64,000 nt of DNA from Lachnospiraceae bacterium (lineage in GTDB: Bacteria; Bacillota; Clostridia; Lachnospirales; Lachnospiraceae): NCBI GenBank assembly GCA_016283275.1, contig JAEEMP010000125.1, positions 62,001 through 126,000 on the forward strand, given 5' to 3'. Within the stretch, counting starts at the first letter, position 1. Every line of letters begins with the position of its first letter. The notes below the pieces were generated by a model, which saw only the letters and a program-made list of their open reading frames with translations, did no database searches and was not told where the DNA came from. Shown piece after piece: positions 28,405 to 43,988 of the stretch. Position numbers and translations under genes: made by a program.

Positions 28405-28607
28405 AAAAAAGGGCGGCGTACGCACCCTTTTTTAATGGGCCCAAAATGAGGTCCTGTCTTTTGACTCCTAGCTCATTCGCCAGGTGGGTGACCGCACATC
28501 GGCTTCTGCCGTCCACTCGAAGGAGGCTTGACATCCACCGATAGATATAGGAATCCCGTTTAAAGTAACTGTAGGTTCAAAAATAACAGGTTCCAGCATT
28601 TCAGGTT
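28405..28607 (-). ncRNA. Structured small RNA, possibly 6S RNA
   Basis: TTGTTT-17-TATAAT promoter, rod-like complementary arms (CCTGT/ACAGG, ATTCCTA/TAGGAGT, GGTGG/CCACC), 3' GGGTG..CGCCC-TTTTTT terminator, noncoding. Confidence 0.5.
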
Positions 28608-28613
28608 AACTGT

Positions 28614-32560: not shown

Positions 32561-34045
32561 TCACCTTAAACCCATGTTGTTTAAAACATAATCCCTCATA
32601 CCTTCGCGTTTGCAAACAGTATCATGAATGACTTTTGCATCGCGTATCTCCTCAATAGCGGGAGGAATATCAACATTTGCCTTTTCGGAAAGGATGTTGA
32701 TAAGTTCAAAATCTTCACCGTCTTCGTACTTTTTGTCGATCGCCTTAAGTACCGAACGGGCAAATTTAAACGGGCTTGCCGTCGAAGCTATGACTGTGAC
32801 CGTCTTATCGCCGGTATCATGTACATACTTATCGTAAGCGGCTGCGGCAACGGCTGTATGTGTATCGATTATATAACCCGTATTCTCGTACAGAGATCTT
32901 ATCTTCCCCGAAGATTCGGCCCAGTCGGCATATTCGCCCACGAAACTGTCCATGAATTCCTTCATGTCGGCCGTGATCTCATATTTCCCTTCTTTAGCAA
33001 GGCTCTCCATGAGCTTTTTGTTCTTTTGGGCATCGCATCCGGCCGACATATAGATAAGTCTTTCAAGATTTGATGAAATAAGGATATCCATCGAAGGGGA
33101 ATCCGTAAGGATAAACTGTCTGTTCTTGTCGTAAACGCCCGTCTTAAAGAAATCGAACAAAACCTTGTTGTCATTCGAGGCGCAGATAAATGTCTTGATC
33201 GGAAGTCCCGATCTCTTGGCAAAGAACGCTGCGAGAATGTTTCCGAAGTTTCCTGTGGGAACACATACGTTTATCTCATCGCCGGGACGGATACGCCCGT
33301 TTTTAACAAGTCGTCCGTAAGCAAATACATAATATGCGATCTGAGGAACAAGTCGTCCTATGTTCATCGAATTGGCGGATGAAAATGCAAATCCCGCATC
33401 GGCCATTTTCTTACGAAGATCCGCGTCTCCGAATATTGCCTTGACTTCGGACTGACAGTCATCAAAATTTCCGTCAACGCCAACCACAAAAGTATTATTG
33501 CCATTCTGTGTGACCATCTGAAGTTTCTGTACGTTGGAAACACCGTCTTTGGGATAAAAAACAATGATGCGCGTACCCGGAACATCCGCAAAACCCGCAA
33601 GAGCCGCCTTCCCGGTATCACCGCTCGTAGCGGTCAGGATAACAACTTCCTTATCGGATCTGTTCTTCTTTACCGCTGTTGTAAGAAGATGGGGCAGGAT
33701 CGATAAAGCCATATCCTTAAAAGCGATCGTGGGACCGTGGAAAAGTTCAAGATAATAAGCCTTGTCCGCTTCTGCCATCGGCACTATCTCTTCGGTATCA
33801 AACTTACTGTCGTAAGCCTTATCGATACAGTCCTTAAGTTCATCTTCGGTATAATCGTCAAGATAACCTTTCATAACGGCAAAGGCCGTTTCCTTATAAT
33901 CCATATCGGCCAGTTCTTCAAGACTTACAGGAAGAGTGGGAAACTCACTCGGCACAAAAAGACCTCCGTCATCGGAAAGGCCTTTAAGTACGGCCTCGGA
34001 CGCCGTAAGCCTTATGGAAGAATCTCTGGTACTTGAATAATACAT
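32561..34045 (-). CDS. thrC: Threonine synthase
   Basis: 494 aa; FHGPTIAFKDMA; TATSGDTGKAAL. Confidence 0.95.
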   Translation of the reverse strand: MYYSSTRDSSIRLTASEAVLKGLSDDGGLFVPSEFPTLPVSLEELADMDYKETAFAVMKGYLDDYTEDELKDCIDKAYDSKFDTEEIVPMAEADKAYYLELFHGPTIAFKDMALSILPHLLTTAVKKNRSDKEVVILTATSGDTGKAALAGFADVPGTRIIVFYPKDGVSNVQKLQMVTQNGNNTFVVGVDGNFDDCQSEVKAIFGDADLRKKMADAGFAFSSANSMNIGRLVPQIAYYVFAYGRLVKNGRIRPGDEINVCVPTGNFGNILAAFFAKRSGLPIKTFICASNDNKVLFDFFKTGVYDKNRQFILTDSPSMDILISSNLERLIYMSAGCDAQKNKKLMESLAKEGKYEITADMKEFMDSFVGEYADWAESSGKIRSLYENTGYIIDTHTAVAAAAYDKYVHDTGDKTVTVIASTASPFKFARSVLKAIDKKYEDGEDFELINILSEKANVDIPPAIEEIRDAKVIHDTVCKREGMRDYVLNNMGLR

Positions 34046-35935: not shown

Positions 35936-36430
35936 TTATTTTGTATATCGCATGAACATCTGCTTTAAGATCCTCCCTTGGCGGTTGGTGGCAAATCTCT
36001 TAAGCTTCAGTTCAACTGCAACCACTTTAAAATTCGAATAGCCTTTAAAGCTGAACGAATATGATTTATATCTTCTGGTCTTTTTGACCGCTTCAAAACA
36101 GTTGTTGTCGATACGGTCCGCAAATATTACAAGCGATACATCGGTATTTTTATGACCGAGATAAGGTTTTACCCTTGATATGCCTTCTTCCCAGCTTATA
36201 TCGCAAAGTCTTTCATACTCTTCCAAAGTTAAATGATCGATCGTCTTAAAAAACACATATTCATTGGAATCGACATCATCGACCTTTGCGGCCTTCACCA
36301 GAAAATACTGTTCATTGTGCGAAAGGAACCACGCCTCCTTATCAAACGGTTCTTTAACGTTTTCGGTTATAATGTTATAATACCGTTCGTAAGAAGGAAT
36401 TATCGCATCAAGAGCTTCTTTTGTCGTCAT
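35936..36430 (-). CDS. Hypothetical protein
   Basis: 164 aa ORF 23 nt upstream of cstA; no family recognised. Confidence 0.6.
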   Translation of the reverse strand: MTTKEALDAIIPSYERYYNIITENVKEPFDKEAWFLSHNEQYFLVKAAKVDDVDSNEYVFFKTIDHLTLEEYERLCDISWEEGISRVKPYLGHKNTDVSLVIFADRIDNNCFEAVKKTRRYKSYSFSFKGYSNFKVVAVELKLKRFATNRQGRILKQMFMRYTK

Positions 36431-36554
36431 AGTTTTATACTTTATCGCTTTACCGCTACAAATTATTTACTAAATTTTAACCCCGAATCTTCAAATAAGC
36501 AACAACAAATTTAGAAAAAATTAATTATTTGTTAATCAAAAATAAAAGGATTGC

Positions 36555-37340
36555 ATGGCAGCGCAAAAACAAGGTGTTTATATCGACAATTTAAAAAGCG
36601 GAAAGCCCAATTTTCGTGCTTCCATAACCAGGAACAACAAGCACATAAGCCTGGGCAGCTACTCTTCCGAGAGCGAAGCCGGAAAAGCTTATCTTTTCGC
36701 CGAAAAGCTTCTTTCTTCGGATATCGATGTTTCCGATTATCCCGAAGACTGCCCTCTTTCCTTCGAAAAATTTGTCATTTTGTGTAATCTTCGAGACAAG
36801 AATATCTATATAAAAACTCCGATCTATCTTGAGAATAAATTTTTCTTTTACTACTATTCTCCGAACGAAATATACAAATTCGATACCGACGATCTTTTTT
36901 ACTTTTCCTCGCATAAGATAATAAAGCGCGGAAACCATATCTTTGTTTCCGATTACGGTTCACAGGTCTCGGTAAAAGAACGATTCGGCATAAAGCCGTT
37001 TTCCGTCGAAGGAAGGGATTATATATTCATAAACGGCGACAATTACGATTTCAGGCGTGAGAACATAGAGATAATAAACCGTTATTTCGGCGTCGAAAAA
37101 CAGACCGTAAAAGCAAAGGAAATATACAAGGCCACGATCAATATAAACGGTAAGTTCATCATCGGCCGCTATGCCGATGAGATAACGGCGGCGATCGCTT
37201 TTAACAAAGCCGTCGATCTGTTACGTTCCAAAGGGATCTCGAAAAAATACCCTCAAAATTATATTGAGGGTATCTCTGCGCGCGAATACGCGGACATTTA
37301 TTCAAATATAAAGATCTCTGACAAGCTTTTGACTATCTGA
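36555..37340 (+). CDS. AP2-domain protein with degenerate HNH-like core
   Basis: 261 aa; two AP2-like segments flanking IFINGDNYDFRRENIEIIN; AGGA upstream. Confidence 0.7.
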   Translation: MAAQKQGVYIDNLKSGKPNFRASITRNNKHISLGSYSSESEAGKAYLFAEKLLSSDIDVSDYPEDCPLSFEKFVILCNLRDKNIYIKTPIYLENKFFFYYYSPNEIYKFDTDDLFYFSSHKIIKRGNHIFVSDYGSQVSVKERFGIKPFSVEGRDYIFINGDNYDFRRENIEIINRYFGVEKQTVKAKEIYKATININGKFIIGRYADEITAAIAFNKAVDLLRSKGISKKYPQNYIEGISAREYADIYSNIKISDKLLTI

Positions 37341-38483: not shown

Positions 38484-39470
38484 ATGAAAAGAAAAACCTC
38501 TTCAGTGATCTTAACTTTAACAATGATTATATCATTAATGCTTTCTCTTGTGGCATGCAAATCACAAGAAACCGAAATTTCTCTTTCGGGTTTCTATTTT
38601 GACACCGTTATCATGGTCGATCTTGCCGGAAGCGAAGCAAAAGCCGCCGCCCAAAAGTGTATGGAACTTGCGGCCGTATACGACGGCCTTCTTAATAAAA
38701 ATACCGAAACATCAGACATTTATATCATTAATCATTCAGGTGGAAAGACCGTAACCGTAAATGAAAAAACCGCCGAGATTTTAGGCGATGCACTTTCTTT
38801 TGCAAAAGAAACGGACGGATTGTTCGATCCGACCGTAGGAACTCTTACCGCCATATGGGATTTTAAATCCGATGACCCAAAGATCCCTTCCGATGCGGAA
38901 ATATCAAAAGCTTTATCTCACGTCGATTATAAAAATGTGATCCTAAACGGCACAAACGTAACCTTAAAAGACAATGAGGCCATGCTCGATCTCGGCGGCA
39001 TCGCAAAAGGCTATATTGCCGATGTCTTAAAAGAAGAAATAAAAAAATATGATGTGGACTACGGATTTATAAATCTGGGCGGAAATGTACTTACCATAAA
39101 CTCAAAACCCGGCAATACTCCGTTTAAGATAGGCATCAAAGACCCTGACCCGGCTGGCGACGGATCGATAACGACAGTTGAAGTTATCGATAAAAGTGTT
39201 GTTACGAGCGGAAGCTACGAACGTTTCTTTCTCAAAGACAATGTTCTTTATCATCATATCCTTGATACAAAAACAGGCTGCCCCGTAAGGAACAACCTGT
39301 TAAGCGTCAGTATAATAGGCGAAAAGTCAACTATATGCGATGCGCTTTCCACCATCCTTTTCATCAAAGGAATCGACGAAGGAACAAAATATCTTGATAA
39401 CTATCCGGGATATGAAGCAATATTCATAACCGACACAAGGGAAATTATCTCTACGAATAAAGCTCGTTGA
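38484..39470 (+). CDS. apbE: FAD:protein FMN transferase lipoprotein
   Basis: 328 aa; lipobox SLVAC; DLGGIAKGYIAD; GFINLGGNV. Confidence 0.93.
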   Translation: MKRKTSSVILTLTMIISLMLSLVACKSQETEISLSGFYFDTVIMVDLAGSEAKAAAQKCMELAAVYDGLLNKNTETSDIYIINHSGGKTVTVNEKTAEILGDALSFAKETDGLFDPTVGTLTAIWDFKSDDPKIPSDAEISKALSHVDYKNVILNGTNVTLKDNEAMLDLGGIAKGYIADVLKEEIKKYDVDYGFINLGGNVLTINSKPGNTPFKIGIKDPDPAGDGSITTVEVIDKSVVTSGSYERFFLKDNVLYHHILDTKTGCPVRNNLLSVSIIGEKSTICDALSTILFIKGIDEGTKYLDNYPGYEAIFITDTREIISTNKAR

Positions 39471-40254
39471 TGACCTTCTTCGGGCATTTCTCCGCACAGG
39501 CTCCGCAGTTTTTGCAAAGTGCGTAATCGATCGTCGCATTGAAATTCTCAAATTTTACGGCATTGTTGGGACAGCTCTTTACGCAGAGAGAACATCCCAC
39601 GCAACCGACTTTACACTGCTTGGTGGTTATCGCACCTTTTTCGGTATTGGAGCATGCAACCGCATACTTTGCATTGTAAGGAATGAGCGATATAAGATGC
39701 TTCGGGCATACCTCAACGCATTTTCCGCAGGCCTTACATTTATCCCTGTCCACAACAGCTACACCGTCCTCGACATGAATGGCATCAAAAGGACAGACGG
39801 AAGCGCATGTACCGAAACCGAGGCATCCCTGATTACACGATTTGGGACCGCCGTTAGGCACAAAGCTTAACATCCTGCAGTCATTTACGCCGTAATATTC
39901 ATAATCCACGGAAGCGTCTTCACAATGGGCTTTACAAGCCACAAACGCAACCTTTCTTTCCGCCGCTTCGGCCTTTGTGCCCATGATAGCCGCTATCTCA
40001 TCGGCAACGGCCTGACCGCCCACGGGACAACGGTTTATCTCCGCCTCACCGTTAACGATCGCATGTGCAAGCCCCGCACAGCCGGGGAATCCGCATCCGC
40101 CGCAGTTATTGCCGGGAAGTTTCGACAGCACGGCTTCTTCTTTTTCATTTACTTCGACTTTAAATACTATTCCCGCGATTCCTAAAAATATACCTACAAA
40201 CAGCCCTATCGAACCTATTATGATAAGAGCGGTAACTATCGATCCGAAATCCAT
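39451..40254 (-). CDS. rnfB: Rnf complex subunit B (ferredoxin-rich)
   Basis: 267 aa; LPGNNCGGCGFPGCAGLA; 4Fe-4S motifs. Confidence 0.95.
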   Translation of the reverse strand: MDFGSIVTALIIIGSIGLFVGIFLGIAGIVFKVEVNEKEEAVLSKLPGNNCGGCGFPGCAGLAHAIVNGEAEINRCPVGGQAVADEIAAIMGTKAEAAERKVAFVACKAHCEDASVDYEYYGVNDCRMLSFVPNGGPKSCNQGCLGFGTCASVCPFDAIHVEDGVAVVDRDKCKACGKCVEVCPKHLISLIPYNAKYAVACSNTEKGAITTKQCKVGCVGCSLCVKSCPNNAVKFENFNATIDYALCKNCGACAEKCPKKVINELYS

Positions 40255-40265
40255 GTCACGCCCTC

Positions 40266-40853
40266 CTACAAAAGTCCCGAGAAACCGCAGAAGGCGATCG
40301 CCATGAGTCCTGCCGATATAAGAACGATCGGCATGCCTTTAAACGGTTTCGGGATATCGTTGTATTGTATCTTTTCACGGATACCGGCAAGTATGATTAT
40401 CGAGATCGCAAAACCCACACTCGTGGCAAATCCGTTAACTGTTCCCTCAAGAAGACTGTAGCTTTTATTGACATTTGTAAGTGCTACACCCAAAACAGCA
40501 CAGTTTGTGGTGATAAGCGGAAGGTATACACCGAGCGCGCTGTACAAAGAAGGTATATATCGCTTTAAGAACATCTCCAAAAACTGCACCAAAGCTGCGA
40601 TCACAAGTATGAATATTATCGTTTTCAAATATTCGATGTGAAATCTTACAAGCAGCTGCTCATACAGGATTCCTGTAACGATCGAGCTTAACGTTATGAC
40701 AAATATGACCGACGTACCCATTCCGACAGCGGTCTTGACCTTTTTGGAAACTCCCAGGAACGGACACAGGCCTAAAAACTGGCTTAAAACGACATTGTTT
40801 ATAAGGGCTGAACCCAATGCAAGAAATATAAGACTTCTAATCATTGTTCTCAT
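40266..40853 (-). CDS. rnfA: Rnf complex subunit A
   Basis: 195 aa; NNVVLSQFLGLCPFLGVSK. Confidence 0.95.
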   Translation of the reverse strand: MRTMIRSLIFLALGSALINNVVLSQFLGLCPFLGVSKKVKTAVGMGTSVIFVITLSSIVTGILYEQLLVRFHIEYLKTIIFILVIAALVQFLEMFLKRYIPSLYSALGVYLPLITTNCAVLGVALTNVNKSYSLLEGTVNGFATSVGFAISIIILAGIREKIQYNDIPKPFKGMPIVLISAGLMAIAFCGFSGLL

Positions 40854-42441
40854 CCTCCTTTAAACTTTCTTCTGCCTTTGAAAGAAGCAATTTGGCTTTA
40901 TCGATGCTCGACTTCTTGTGTGACTTCTTTTTGACAGGCTTATTTATACGGCTCTTAAACTCTTCAAGATTGAAAAATTCAATATCATCATCTTCGGCTT
41001 TTGCTTCTTCCGCTTTGTCTGCCTCTCCGGCATTTCCGGCTTCTTCTGAAACTTTGGCTTCTTCTAAGACTTTTGCTTCTTCCAAAGCCTTTGCTTCCTC
41101 GGCTTTCTTGGCTTCTTCCGCTGCTTTTGCCTCTTCGGCTGCCTTGGCTTCTTCCGCCGCCTTTGCCTCTTCGGCTGCCTTGGCTTCTTCCGTCGCCTTT
41201 GCCTCTTCGGCTGCCTTGACCGTTTCTTCGGCCTCTCTTAAGATACGCTCTTCTTCAGCTTTTTCTGCTTCCAAAGCCTTGCGGGCAACTTCTTTCGCCT
41301 TTTCCTCAGCCTTTTTAGCTTCCAATGCCGCTTTTTCTTCAGCCTTCTTAGCCTCCAGAGCAGCCTTTTCTTCGGCTTTCTTGGCAGCCAGTTCAGCCTT
41401 TTCTTCGGCTCTTTTCTTTGAAGCCTCTTCTCTTGCCGCCTTTCTTTCCGCATTCTTTACAGACTGCTTTTCTTTAAAGTCGGCAAATCTGCCCGAAAGA
41501 ACGGCAATAAAGTTAGGTTTTGAAGCCTTGTCTTCTTCTGCCCCGGATCCGTCGGACTTTGGCTCTTCGACCTTTAAATCCTCTTTGGCGGGTTCTTCAG
41601 CCTCGGGCTCTTCCTTATCTTCTTCCTGCTTAGGTTCGTTCTTAACGGTTTCTTCGGGCTTTTTATCTTCCTCAACGGACTCTTTAGGCTTTTTATCTTC
41701 CTTAACGGGTTCTTCCGGCTTTTGCTCTTCCGTTACCGGAGCGGCAACCTTACATTCCTTATCACAGGCCATACAGTCTCCGCCACAGCCGGAGCCGATT
41801 TTGGACATATCCTTTCCGTGCTTTTGACCGATATCCTTGATATAATTCTGAAGTGCGGTAAGCAGTGCCATTACAAAGAACGCACCGGGTGCCATTATAA
41901 ATATGCTCACCGGCACAAACCCGTCCGGCATTATATGATAACCGAATATTTCTCCCGCTCCGAGAAGTTCTCTGAAACCACCGAGGATCGTAAGAGCCAG
42001 ACTGAAGCCCAGGCCCATTCCGATACCATCGAAAAGAGACGGGATCGGGCCGTGGGAGTAAGCATATGCCTCCGCACGTCCGAGGATGATACAGTTAACG
42101 ACTATAAGCGGTATATATATGCCGAGTGCATCGTAAAGGAACGGAATATATGCCTTAAGCAAAAGCTCCACGATCGTTACGAACGAAGCGATAATAACGA
42201 TAAACGCAGGTATCCTGATCTTATTCGGAATGACCTTTCTTAAAAGCGAAATAAGCAGATTGCTCAATGCAAGCACCACCATTGTGGTAAGTCCCATGCC
42301 AAGACCGTTGATCGCGCTTGTGGTCACCGCAAGCGTAGGACACATACCGAGCAAAAGAACAAAGGTGGGATTTTCTTTAAACAGACCGTTTACAAGTCTT
42401 TCACCCATTTGAGAGGGAATGCTTTGGTTTTGCTTATTCAT
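40837..42441 (-). CDS. rnfE: Rnf complex subunit E with large C-terminal extension
   Basis: 534 aa; N-terminal ~205 aa is RnfE (LGMCPTLAVTTSAINGLGMG); then Cys cluster and Ala/Glu/Lys-rich tail. Confidence 0.93.
   Translation of the reverse strand: MNKQNQSIPSQMGERLVNGLFKENPTFVLLLGMCPTLAVTTSAINGLGMGLTTMVVLALSNLLISLLRKVIPNKIRIPAFIVIIASFVTIVELLLKAYIPFLYDALGIYIPLIVVNCIILGRAEAYAYSHGPIPSLFDGIGMGLGFSLALTILGGFRELLGAGEIFGYHIMPDGFVPVSIFIMAPGAFFVMALLTALQNYIKDIGQKHGKDMSKIGSGCGGDCMACDKECKVAAPVTEEQKPEEPVKEDKKPKESVEEDKKPEETVKNEPKQEEDKEEPEAEEPAKEDLKVEEPKSDGSGAEEDKASKPNFIAVLSGRFADFKEKQSVKNAERKAAREEASKKRAEEKAELAAKKAEEKAALEAKKAEEKAALEAKKAEEKAKEVARKALEAEKAEEERILREAEETVKAAEEAKATEEAKAAEEAKAAEEAKAAEEAKAAEEAKKAEEAKALEEAKVLEEAKVSEEAGNAGEADKAEEAKAEDDDIEFFNLEEFKSRINKPVKKKSHKKSSIDKAKLLLSKAEESLKEDENND
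41111..41218. repeat. 36-bp tandem repeat, 3 near-identical copies
   Basis: Copies of gcttcttccgcYgcYtttgcctcttcggctgccttg at 41111, 41147, 41183 (copy 3 also has tcg for gccg). Confidence 0.9.
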
Positions 42442-43060
42442 TCACAACACCTCCTCCCAAAACTTCTCTTAAATATAAAAGCCCGGCATTTACACCGTTA
42501 ACAAATGCCTTTGATGTGATCGTAGCACTTGAAATGGCATCTATCTGATTGTCGAGTGCGGCACCGGTCTTTGTGACCTCAAAGCTGTCAGCTCTTCTTT
42601 CAAAAAACTGCGGAACGATAACTTCTTCGGCTCTCATACCAAGCCCTGCGGTCTCGGATATTGACGTGATCGCTATCGCATTGACCGTTCCGTCATTCTG
42701 AACGCCCATTCTGAACACGATATCTCCGCCGAAGCCTTCGTGGCTTGTGATCTCAAATACATATCCGATCTGTCCGCCGCCCGAATCCTTTGCGGCAAGA
42801 ACTTCCGTGATCTCGACGTTTTCAAAATCGTCTTCGAGGCATTTAAGCATCTGATCTTTGTCAAAATTCTGTTCTTCAAACGAAGAAGCATTTACAAATA
42901 CAGCCGCATTGGCTTCCTGTCTTGCCTTTTCTTCCATATTGGCAATGGGGTCTTTGGTAATTTCATACACGAATCCGAGGATAAAGCCCGCGATAAGTGT
43001 GATCGCAAGCATTATAAGGGTATTCTTTACAAGTTCTTTTATCTCAACGTTCTTATTCAC
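42434..43060 (-). CDS. rnfG: Rnf complex subunit G
   Basis: 208 aa; flavinylation-type motif SSATITS. Confidence 0.93.
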   Translation of the reverse strand: MNKNVEIKELVKNTLIMLAITLIAGFILGFVYEITKDPIANMEEKARQEANAAVFVNASSFEEQNFDKDQMLKCLEDDFENVEITEVLAAKDSGGGQIGYVFEITSHEGFGGDIVFRMGVQNDGTVNAIAITSISETAGLGMRAEEVIVPQFFERRADSFEVTKTGAALDNQIDAISSATITSKAFVNGVNAGLLYLREVLGGGVVNE

Positions 43061-43988
43061 TCTTTACCGCCCCCTTTCCGAAATATGAAGGTACGGTAAT
43101 CTTATCGATGAGCGGAACAAGAATGTTGCCGATTATGATCGCATAAGAAACTCCTTCGGCTGTCGGACCGAAGACTCTGAACACAGCGGTCAATATACCG
43201 AGCAGCATTCCGAATATTACCTGTCCCGATTTGCTTATGGGTCTTGTGACATAATCGGTAGCCATGAAAAACGCACCGAGTATAAGTCCGCCGCCCAGAA
43301 CATGCGCAGAAAGGAAGGTCGGATCGAATCCGTGGCCTCCGAACAATCCGATACATATCACAAAAGTCGCTATGTACATTCCGGGGATTATAAGATCGAT
43401 AACACCGCAAAGAAACAAAAATACCGCTCCGATAAGAAGACACAGCGCCGATGTCTCACCGATGGTACCCTGGGTATTTCCGGTAAGCATCTTCACGATA
43501 TCCACCTGCTCTCCCATCTTTATCCTGTAAAGAGGCGTAGCGCCCGACATCGTATCGGTATCGAAATTTGTCATTATGGATGTAAATGAGATCAAAAGAA
43601 AACATCTTGCGGCAAGGGCCGGGTTCATAAAATTCTGACCGAGACCGCCGAAAAGCATCTTGACCACCACTATGGCAAAGAAAGAACCCACGATCGGGAT
43701 CCACCACGGTGCCTTTACCGGAAGGTTAAGGGCCAGAAGAAGACCCGTAACGATCGCGGAAAAATCAGAGACAGTGTTCTTTCTGCCCGTAAACATTTCA
43801 AATAAAAGTTCAAACGCAACCGCACTTATTATCGAAACACCAATGAGCATAAGTGCGTTAAAGCCGAATCTGTATATTGCGTGACCGGCGGCCGGAAGAA
43901 GCGAAATGATGACTAAAAGCATGATCGAGCTTGTTGTCTGCTTTGACCGGATATGCGGATTTGAAGATACATTTAATAATCCGTCCAC
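43053..43988 (-). CDS. rnfD: Rnf complex subunit D
   Basis: 311 aa; SGATPLYR flavinylation-type motif. Confidence 0.95.
   Translation of the reverse strand: MDGLLNVSSNPHIRSKQTTSSIMLLVIISLLPAAGHAIYRFGFNALMLIGVSIISAVAFELLFEMFTGRKNTVSDFSAIVTGLLLALNLPVKAPWWIPIVGSFFAIVVVKMLFGGLGQNFMNPALAARCFLLISFTSIMTNFDTDTMSGATPLYRIKMGEQVDIVKMLTGNTQGTIGETSALCLLIGAVFLFLCGVIDLIIPGMYIATFVICIGLFGGHGFDPTFLSAHVLGGGLILGAFFMATDYVTRPISKSGQVIFGMLLGILTAVFRVFGPTAEGVSYAIIIGNILVPLIDKITVPSYFGKGAVKSE

Follow-up and report, generated by a model that had tools for sequence, protein, structure and literature searches.

The 64,000-nt window analysed here raises the question of what a protein composed of the modules of a phage homing endonuclease does in a bacterial chromosome. 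The window is part of a 137-kb contig of a 2.46-Mb Lachnospiraceae-type metagenome-assembled genome (MAG), whose named relatives are Lachnospiraceae MAGs originating from yak omasum, rumen-type samples and horse faeces. The open reading frame at 36555..37340 (+, TGA stop included) starts with ATG, is preceded by the ribosome-binding site AAAGGA (36545..36550, +) and encodes a 261-aa protein in which two AP2 domains flank a core derived from an HNH nuclease. Its orthologues are open from end to end. An earlier note, written from the DNA sequence alone, had described the product of this gene as resembling a domesticated HNH homing endonuclease; the gene and the peptides quoted for it are present.

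Two AP2 domains flank the core

To identify the domains of the protein, we used profile searches and structure prediction. Scans of the window protein alone against Pfam and NCBIfam yielded no match. The protein did match seven PHROG families, and it was mainly the two AP2 segments that aligned; six of the seven families are annotated as HNH endonuclease. More specifically, PHROG_99 (HNH endonuclease) matched with an E-value of 1.4e-9, the best stretch being residues 7-54, and PHROG_4578 matched residues 186-219 (3.6e-4), which bears out the AP2-like character that the earlier note had assigned to both termini. All 26 aligned orthologues matched PHROG_99 (best 5.9e-17). The profile check proposed in the note, against AP2 and HNH_3, gave Pfam AP2 in 12 of the 26 family members (best 1.1e-5) and a weak HNH_3 match in five (best 0.013).

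The N-terminal AP2 domain (residues 6-55; 36570..36719, +) comprises three strands and a helix and carries the near-invariant motif KHISLGSY. In hhalign comparisons, it matched phage AP2 at 1.8e-12 and phage HNH-AP2 endonucleases at 2.3e-8. The C-terminal AP2 domain (residues 177-223; 37083..37223, +), marked by the motif AAIAYNKAxD, is followed by a C-terminal tail (residues 224-261; 37224..37337, +). The closest relative among PDB sequences was the double-AP2 plant factor WRI1 (7wq5; 6e-7), both AP2 domains of which were matched by the family profile. Matches to de novo TIM-barrels in the same search were dismissed as chance.

The AlphaFold2 model of the whole protein, built on the family alignment, had a pLDDT of 91.8 and a strand-strand-strand-helix AP2 unit at each end. 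Searched against viral proteins, this model matched HNH and HNH-AP2 proteins, with 30 viral proteins at E<=0.001. The top fold match in the PDB was the AP2 domain of TEM1, a weak match (E=0.02).

The core is of HNH ancestry

A conserved helix (residues 69-84; 36759..36806, +), recognized from the model and from conservation, precedes the core. The core itself spans residues 85-176 (36807..37082, +), as judged from hhalign, structure matches to HNH endonucleases and conservation. The HNH-like core had previously been placed at 36906..37079; its HNH ancestry was upheld, and its extent proved wider.

To evaluate this ancestry, we compared profiles with profiles. Residues 100-222 matched the HNH and AP2 parts of phage endonucleases with an E-value of 3.1e-13. 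Stripped of AP2 sequence on both sides, the core still matched HNH (9.4e-5) with a score of 28.9, as compared to a maximum of 19.6 among 200 column shuffles and 15.1 for the reversed profile. The core was also modelled alone (residues 66-180; pLDDT 87.6). This model matched viral proteins down to an E-value of 6.7e-6, with a query TM-score of about 0.5-0.58 for the top matches; nearly all of the named ones were HNH or homing endonucleases, and the HNH-AP2 enzyme of Bacillus phage Stahl was among them. Because the core-alone model matches HNH endonucleases, the HNH ancestry is supported independently of the AP2 parts. The structure prediction suggested in the earlier note thus recovered AP2 units at both ends and an HNH-like middle. 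The core is also the best-conserved region of the protein (conservation of 0.70 vs 0.60 and 0.62 in the two AP2 domains), and its dN was the lowest in most close pairs.

The catalytic residues of HNH enzymes have been lost

Catalysis by I-HmuI uses D74, H75 and N96 (PMC12724721), and phage HNH-AP2 proteins align to I-HmuI through a VDH motif and an Asn-bearing helix. In the window protein, the positions of the catalytic Asp-His are occupied by Ile-Phe (residues 157-158; 37023..37028, +), as the earlier note had read. Among 85 distinct orthologues, residue 158, which corresponds to the general base H75, is Phe in 82, Leu in two, Gln in one and His in none, and residue 157, at the D74 position, is Asp in a single orthologue. 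The stretch from N170 to G179 (37062..37091, +) numbers exactly 10 residues in all 85 orthologues, whereas the active Stahl protein has about 25 there. The helix bearing N96, the third catalytic residue, is therefore missing from 85/85. In the LHR motif, the His is replaced and the Arg is kept (R143 in 82/85), so that the loss of the His-Arg pair claimed in the note held for its first residue and failed for its second. The note's claim of lost nuclease activity agrees with the family-wide absence of the catalytic residues; what it missed was the main loss, the deletion of the third-residue helix. Overall, the alignments indicate that catalysis has very probably been lost across the family.

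Three residues of the core, D155, R167 and N170, are invariant in 85/85 orthologues, and position 156 is Tyr or Phe in 81/85. We considered an alternative alignment that puts D155 at the D74 position. It was rejected, as it needs a two-residue insertion where the gapless loop length fits exactly, finds a His in only 3/85 orthologues and provides no helix. The invariant D155, two residues before the Asp position, nevertheless leaves a small chance of a cryptic or altered metal site.

The gene occupies a fixed locus and is inherited mainly vertically

The conserved flank of the AP2 gene is the threonine synthase gene thrC (32561..34045, -), identified by Pfam Thr_synth_N and other families and by synteny. 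In 36 of 41 orthologous loci, thrC occupies this side of the AP2 gene and is oriented away from it; a Hydrolase_2 cell-wall hydrolase gene is present at 21 of the 41, mostly between the two. The divergent neighbour in the window (35936..36430, -), which encodes 164 aa with no Pfam family, is common to close relatives only (4/41 loci). Genomes of the same family that do not carry the AP2 gene have thrC together with several of these flanks and a clean junction where the gene would be, as in the arrangement thrC-leuD-leuC and in loci where thrC occurs with clusters 11, 15, 45, 149 and 148. These clean empty sites indicate that the gene is dispensable. The best fit is that the gene inserted next to thrC in an ancestor and was later lost in some lineages. 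The thrC neighbourhood could reflect mere positional inheritance.

One Lachnospirales family (f2; L029, G736, G757, G791, G803, G831 and others) has a third, C-terminal AP2 domain in open frames of about 354-411 aa. In the two loci of this type that were examined, the gene adjoins transketolase and not thrC. Elsewhere in the window, an apparent rnf cluster (39451-43988) adjoins an ApbE flavin transferase gene (38484-39470). One of its genes (40837-42441, -) encodes an Rnf-type subunit of 534 aa with an N-terminus that is RnfE-like by eye and a long, repetitive C-terminal extension rich in Ala, Glu and Lys. A 6S/SsrS RNA at 28434-28610 (-) scored 55.4 bits, above the Rfam gathering score, and was also found in the relatives L133 and L139.

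Of 17 other genomes of the same genus, 16 carry the AP2 gene, as do 115 of 298 genomes sampled evenly across the family of the window and 63 of 196 sampled across the order. Absent from about 60% of the sampled family genomes, it is not essential. Outside Lachnospirales, 243 genomes sampled from the class and 399 from the phylum yielded only short AP2-type fragments and no full-length orthologue. Copies are nearly always single and open, the exceptions being a decayed copy with five stops (G643), a copy with a split frame (G511) and fragments at the ends of contigs. In eight unsaturated close pairs, dN/dS was 0.025-0.09, which reflects strong purifying selection. This was the orthologue check that the earlier note had called for, and the family is not of the sporadic, decaying kind that it named as the opposing outcome.

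To compare the history of the gene with that of its hosts, we used gyrB. Distances in the AP2-protein tree track those of gyrB across 29 genomes (Mantel r=0.67; 0/5000 permutations), and the two trees have 8 of 26 internal splits in common, including the genus clade. These data fit a gene inherited mainly vertically; the deep branches, left unresolved by so short a protein, may include some transfers. The gene was not found on plasmids. As for phages, two records labelled 'Bacteriophage sp.' carry leuCD-type genes, with thrC in one, and were set aside as bacterial contigs, and the single IMG/VR match is a contig edge adjoining leuCD. Both records, L170 (MT837267.1) and L171 (MT836856.1), are Lachnospirales-like chromosome fragments with leuC and/or leuD and appear to be mislabelled. 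The single copy, fixed locus and gyrB congruence differ from the selfish, sporadic distribution of elements found in phages, introns and inteins.

A probable DNA-binding regulator

Domestication of an HNH-AP2 endonuclease with loss of its nuclease activity is well supported: the catalytic residues are absent, the gene is kept as a single copy in a fixed place under purifying selection, its tree agrees with that of gyrB and decay is not apparent. On this point the earlier note was right. We consider it probable that the product is also, as the note went on to propose, a sequence-specific DNA-binding regulator, acting through its two AP2 domains. A role in DNA binding is argued for by the conservation of both AP2 folds, which are intact, and of the inactive core that carries them, by purifying selection and by the lack of any hint that the gene moves. 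From these features we infer DNA binding, its mode of recognition, the regulation of transcription and the existence of targets. Transcriptional regulation is the likeliest role by analogy with WhiA and the AP2/ERF factors. Several points count against this explanation. With 38 Lys and Arg vs 33 Asp and Glu, the protein is not strongly basic; the gene is missing from more than half of the sampled family genomes; and the operator search described below was negative.

In the scenario that we favour, an ancestor of the Lachnospirales would have acquired a phage-type AP2-HNH-AP2 endonuclease next to thrC. The general-base His and the metal-binding helix would then have been lost, such that the protein should not cut DNA, and inheritance thereafter would have been mainly vertical, as a single host gene. 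The two AP2 sheets would contact two half-sites in the major groove, with the HNH-derived core acting as a rigid, highly conserved connector that perhaps makes a DNA, protein or ligand contact of its own. As a result, transcription would be switched or tuned.

To search for an operator, we subjected 77 upstream regions to gapped-dyad and EM motif searches, which returned no operator-like motif. The one motif that stood out, GCnTCnGAAGC, was strong but was traced to the other strand of the thrC coding sequence, where it corresponds to codons for Ala-Ser-Glu-Ala. A role in sporulation was tested because of the Hydrolase_2 gene at many of the loci. However, spoIVA was present in 70 of 114 genomes with the AP2 gene vs 130 of 184 without it, and no association was detected (Fisher p=0.10). 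A search for spoIVA in the genome of the window, which is 86% complete, gave no match.

The same features allow other readings. An inactive DNA-binding relic could serve a non-regulatory role, for example in nucleoid organisation or in immunity by occupying the homing sites of phage HNH-AP2 enzymes; in the latter variant, the dead enzyme would bind its target and block cutting by an active phage endonuclease. Phages whose host is annotated as Enterocloster, which belongs to the Lachnospiraceae, do encode active HNH-AP2 endonucleases, and the loss of the dispensable gene in many genera and the negative regulatory motif search also favour such a relic. Nevertheless, we regard it as unlikely. PADLOC gave no defence-system match, and the gene sits in a fixed metabolic neighbourhood, not in defence islands or prophages. 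Moreover, a site-blocking protein would experience the strongest selection on its AP2 surfaces, but it is the HNH-derived core that is most conserved.

This slow evolution of the core, together with its three invariant residues, could also be taken as the mark of a nuclease that is still active with a changed active site, built for example from D155 plus D165, H30 or H120. Such an enzyme is quite improbable, given that the HNH-defining residues are substituted or deleted, that position 156 is almost always aromatic and that single-copy vertical inheritance without spread is unlike homing. Finally, the patchy presence of the gene and its two damaged copies recall a homing endonuclease, once mobile, of which no more than a remnant is left and which is heading for loss. 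We regard this reading as all but refuted by the selection and orthology evidence: nearly all copies are uninterrupted, their dN/dS is low, and the kept locus position and the gyrB congruence span the whole order.

A domesticated regulator could imply more. We see roughly an even chance that the family is a bacterial AP2 factor made from a phage HNH-AP2 endonuclease, independently of plants and apicomplexans, in which the dead core gained a function of its own, such as a specific DNA, ligand or partner contact. A new function of this kind would explain why the core is the slowest-evolving part.

Relation to known systems

The open-licence literature describes HNH-AP2 enzymes in phages, putative AP2 regulators of anti-CRISPR loci, plant AP2/ERF factors whose origin from endonucleases has been proposed, and WhiA; in it we found no account of bacteria with a chromosomal HNH-AP2 family that is catalytically dead. 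The phage HNH-AP2 homing endonucleases (Bacillus phages Stahl and Slash, Enterocloster phage PMBT24 and Synechococcus phage Ssp-JY42) consist of the same two modules and are homologous to the Lachnospirales family by the profile comparison given above and by predicted structure, including the HNH-lineage fold of the core. The Ssp-JY42 protein even has the same AP2-HNH-AP2 order. However, the phage enzymes keep VDH or a similar motif and the catalytic helix and sit in phage genomes, whereas the Lachnospirales family has neither the catalytic Asp-His nor the helix Asn and is an orthologous chromosomal gene. The Ssp-JY42 protein (L160:206-883), annotated as hypothetical, has an intact Asp-His and offers a plausible picture of how the active ancestor was built.

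AP2-domain proteins in anti-CRISPR loci of Clostridioides phages, putative Aca proteins, have been proposed as regulators in Clostridia (PMC10732046). These are small phage proteins encoded beside acr genes. By contrast, the Lachnospirales family is chromosomal, contains the HNH-derived core and lies in the thrC neighbourhood, away from acr genes and prophages.

The closest precedents of a domesticated regulator are WhiA and the plant AP2/ERF factors. WhiA (DUF199) is a Gram-positive transcription factor, inherited vertically, that has incorporated a homing-endonuclease domain no longer capable of catalysis (PMC3781837). It is LAGLIDADG-derived and relies on an additional HTH domain for DNA binding, whereas the Lachnospirales family is HNH-derived and keeps its AP2 domains; Pfam scans of the window protein and the 26 members detected neither a LAGLIDADG-derived domain nor an HTH. 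The two have no sequence relationship and are alike in how they would work, not in membership. If the Lachnospirales family is indeed regulatory, HNH-AP2 enzymes would join the LAGLIDADG lineage of WhiA as a source of bacterial regulators.

The plant AP2/ERF factors (WRI1, TEM1, ERF) have the AP2 fold, a three-stranded sheet and a helix, in common with the family, and WRI1 likewise has two AP2 domains. An origin from HNH-AP2 endonucleases has been proposed for them as well (review PMC5318435). In the plant factors the HNH domain has been lost entirely, whereas the Lachnospirales family keeps the HNH-derived core as its best-conserved part. The family would thus parallel, in bacteria, the route by which AP2/ERF transcription factors are proposed to have arisen. 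The gene is conserved across Lachnospirales, uncharacterised and probably regulatory; should it prove to be a bacterial AP2 factor with a newly functional core, it would represent a regulator family that spans an order of major gut and rumen bacteria and has not been described. With AP2 domains still joined to a dead HNH core, the family would preserve an intermediate state that makes the path from endonuclease to regulator testable.
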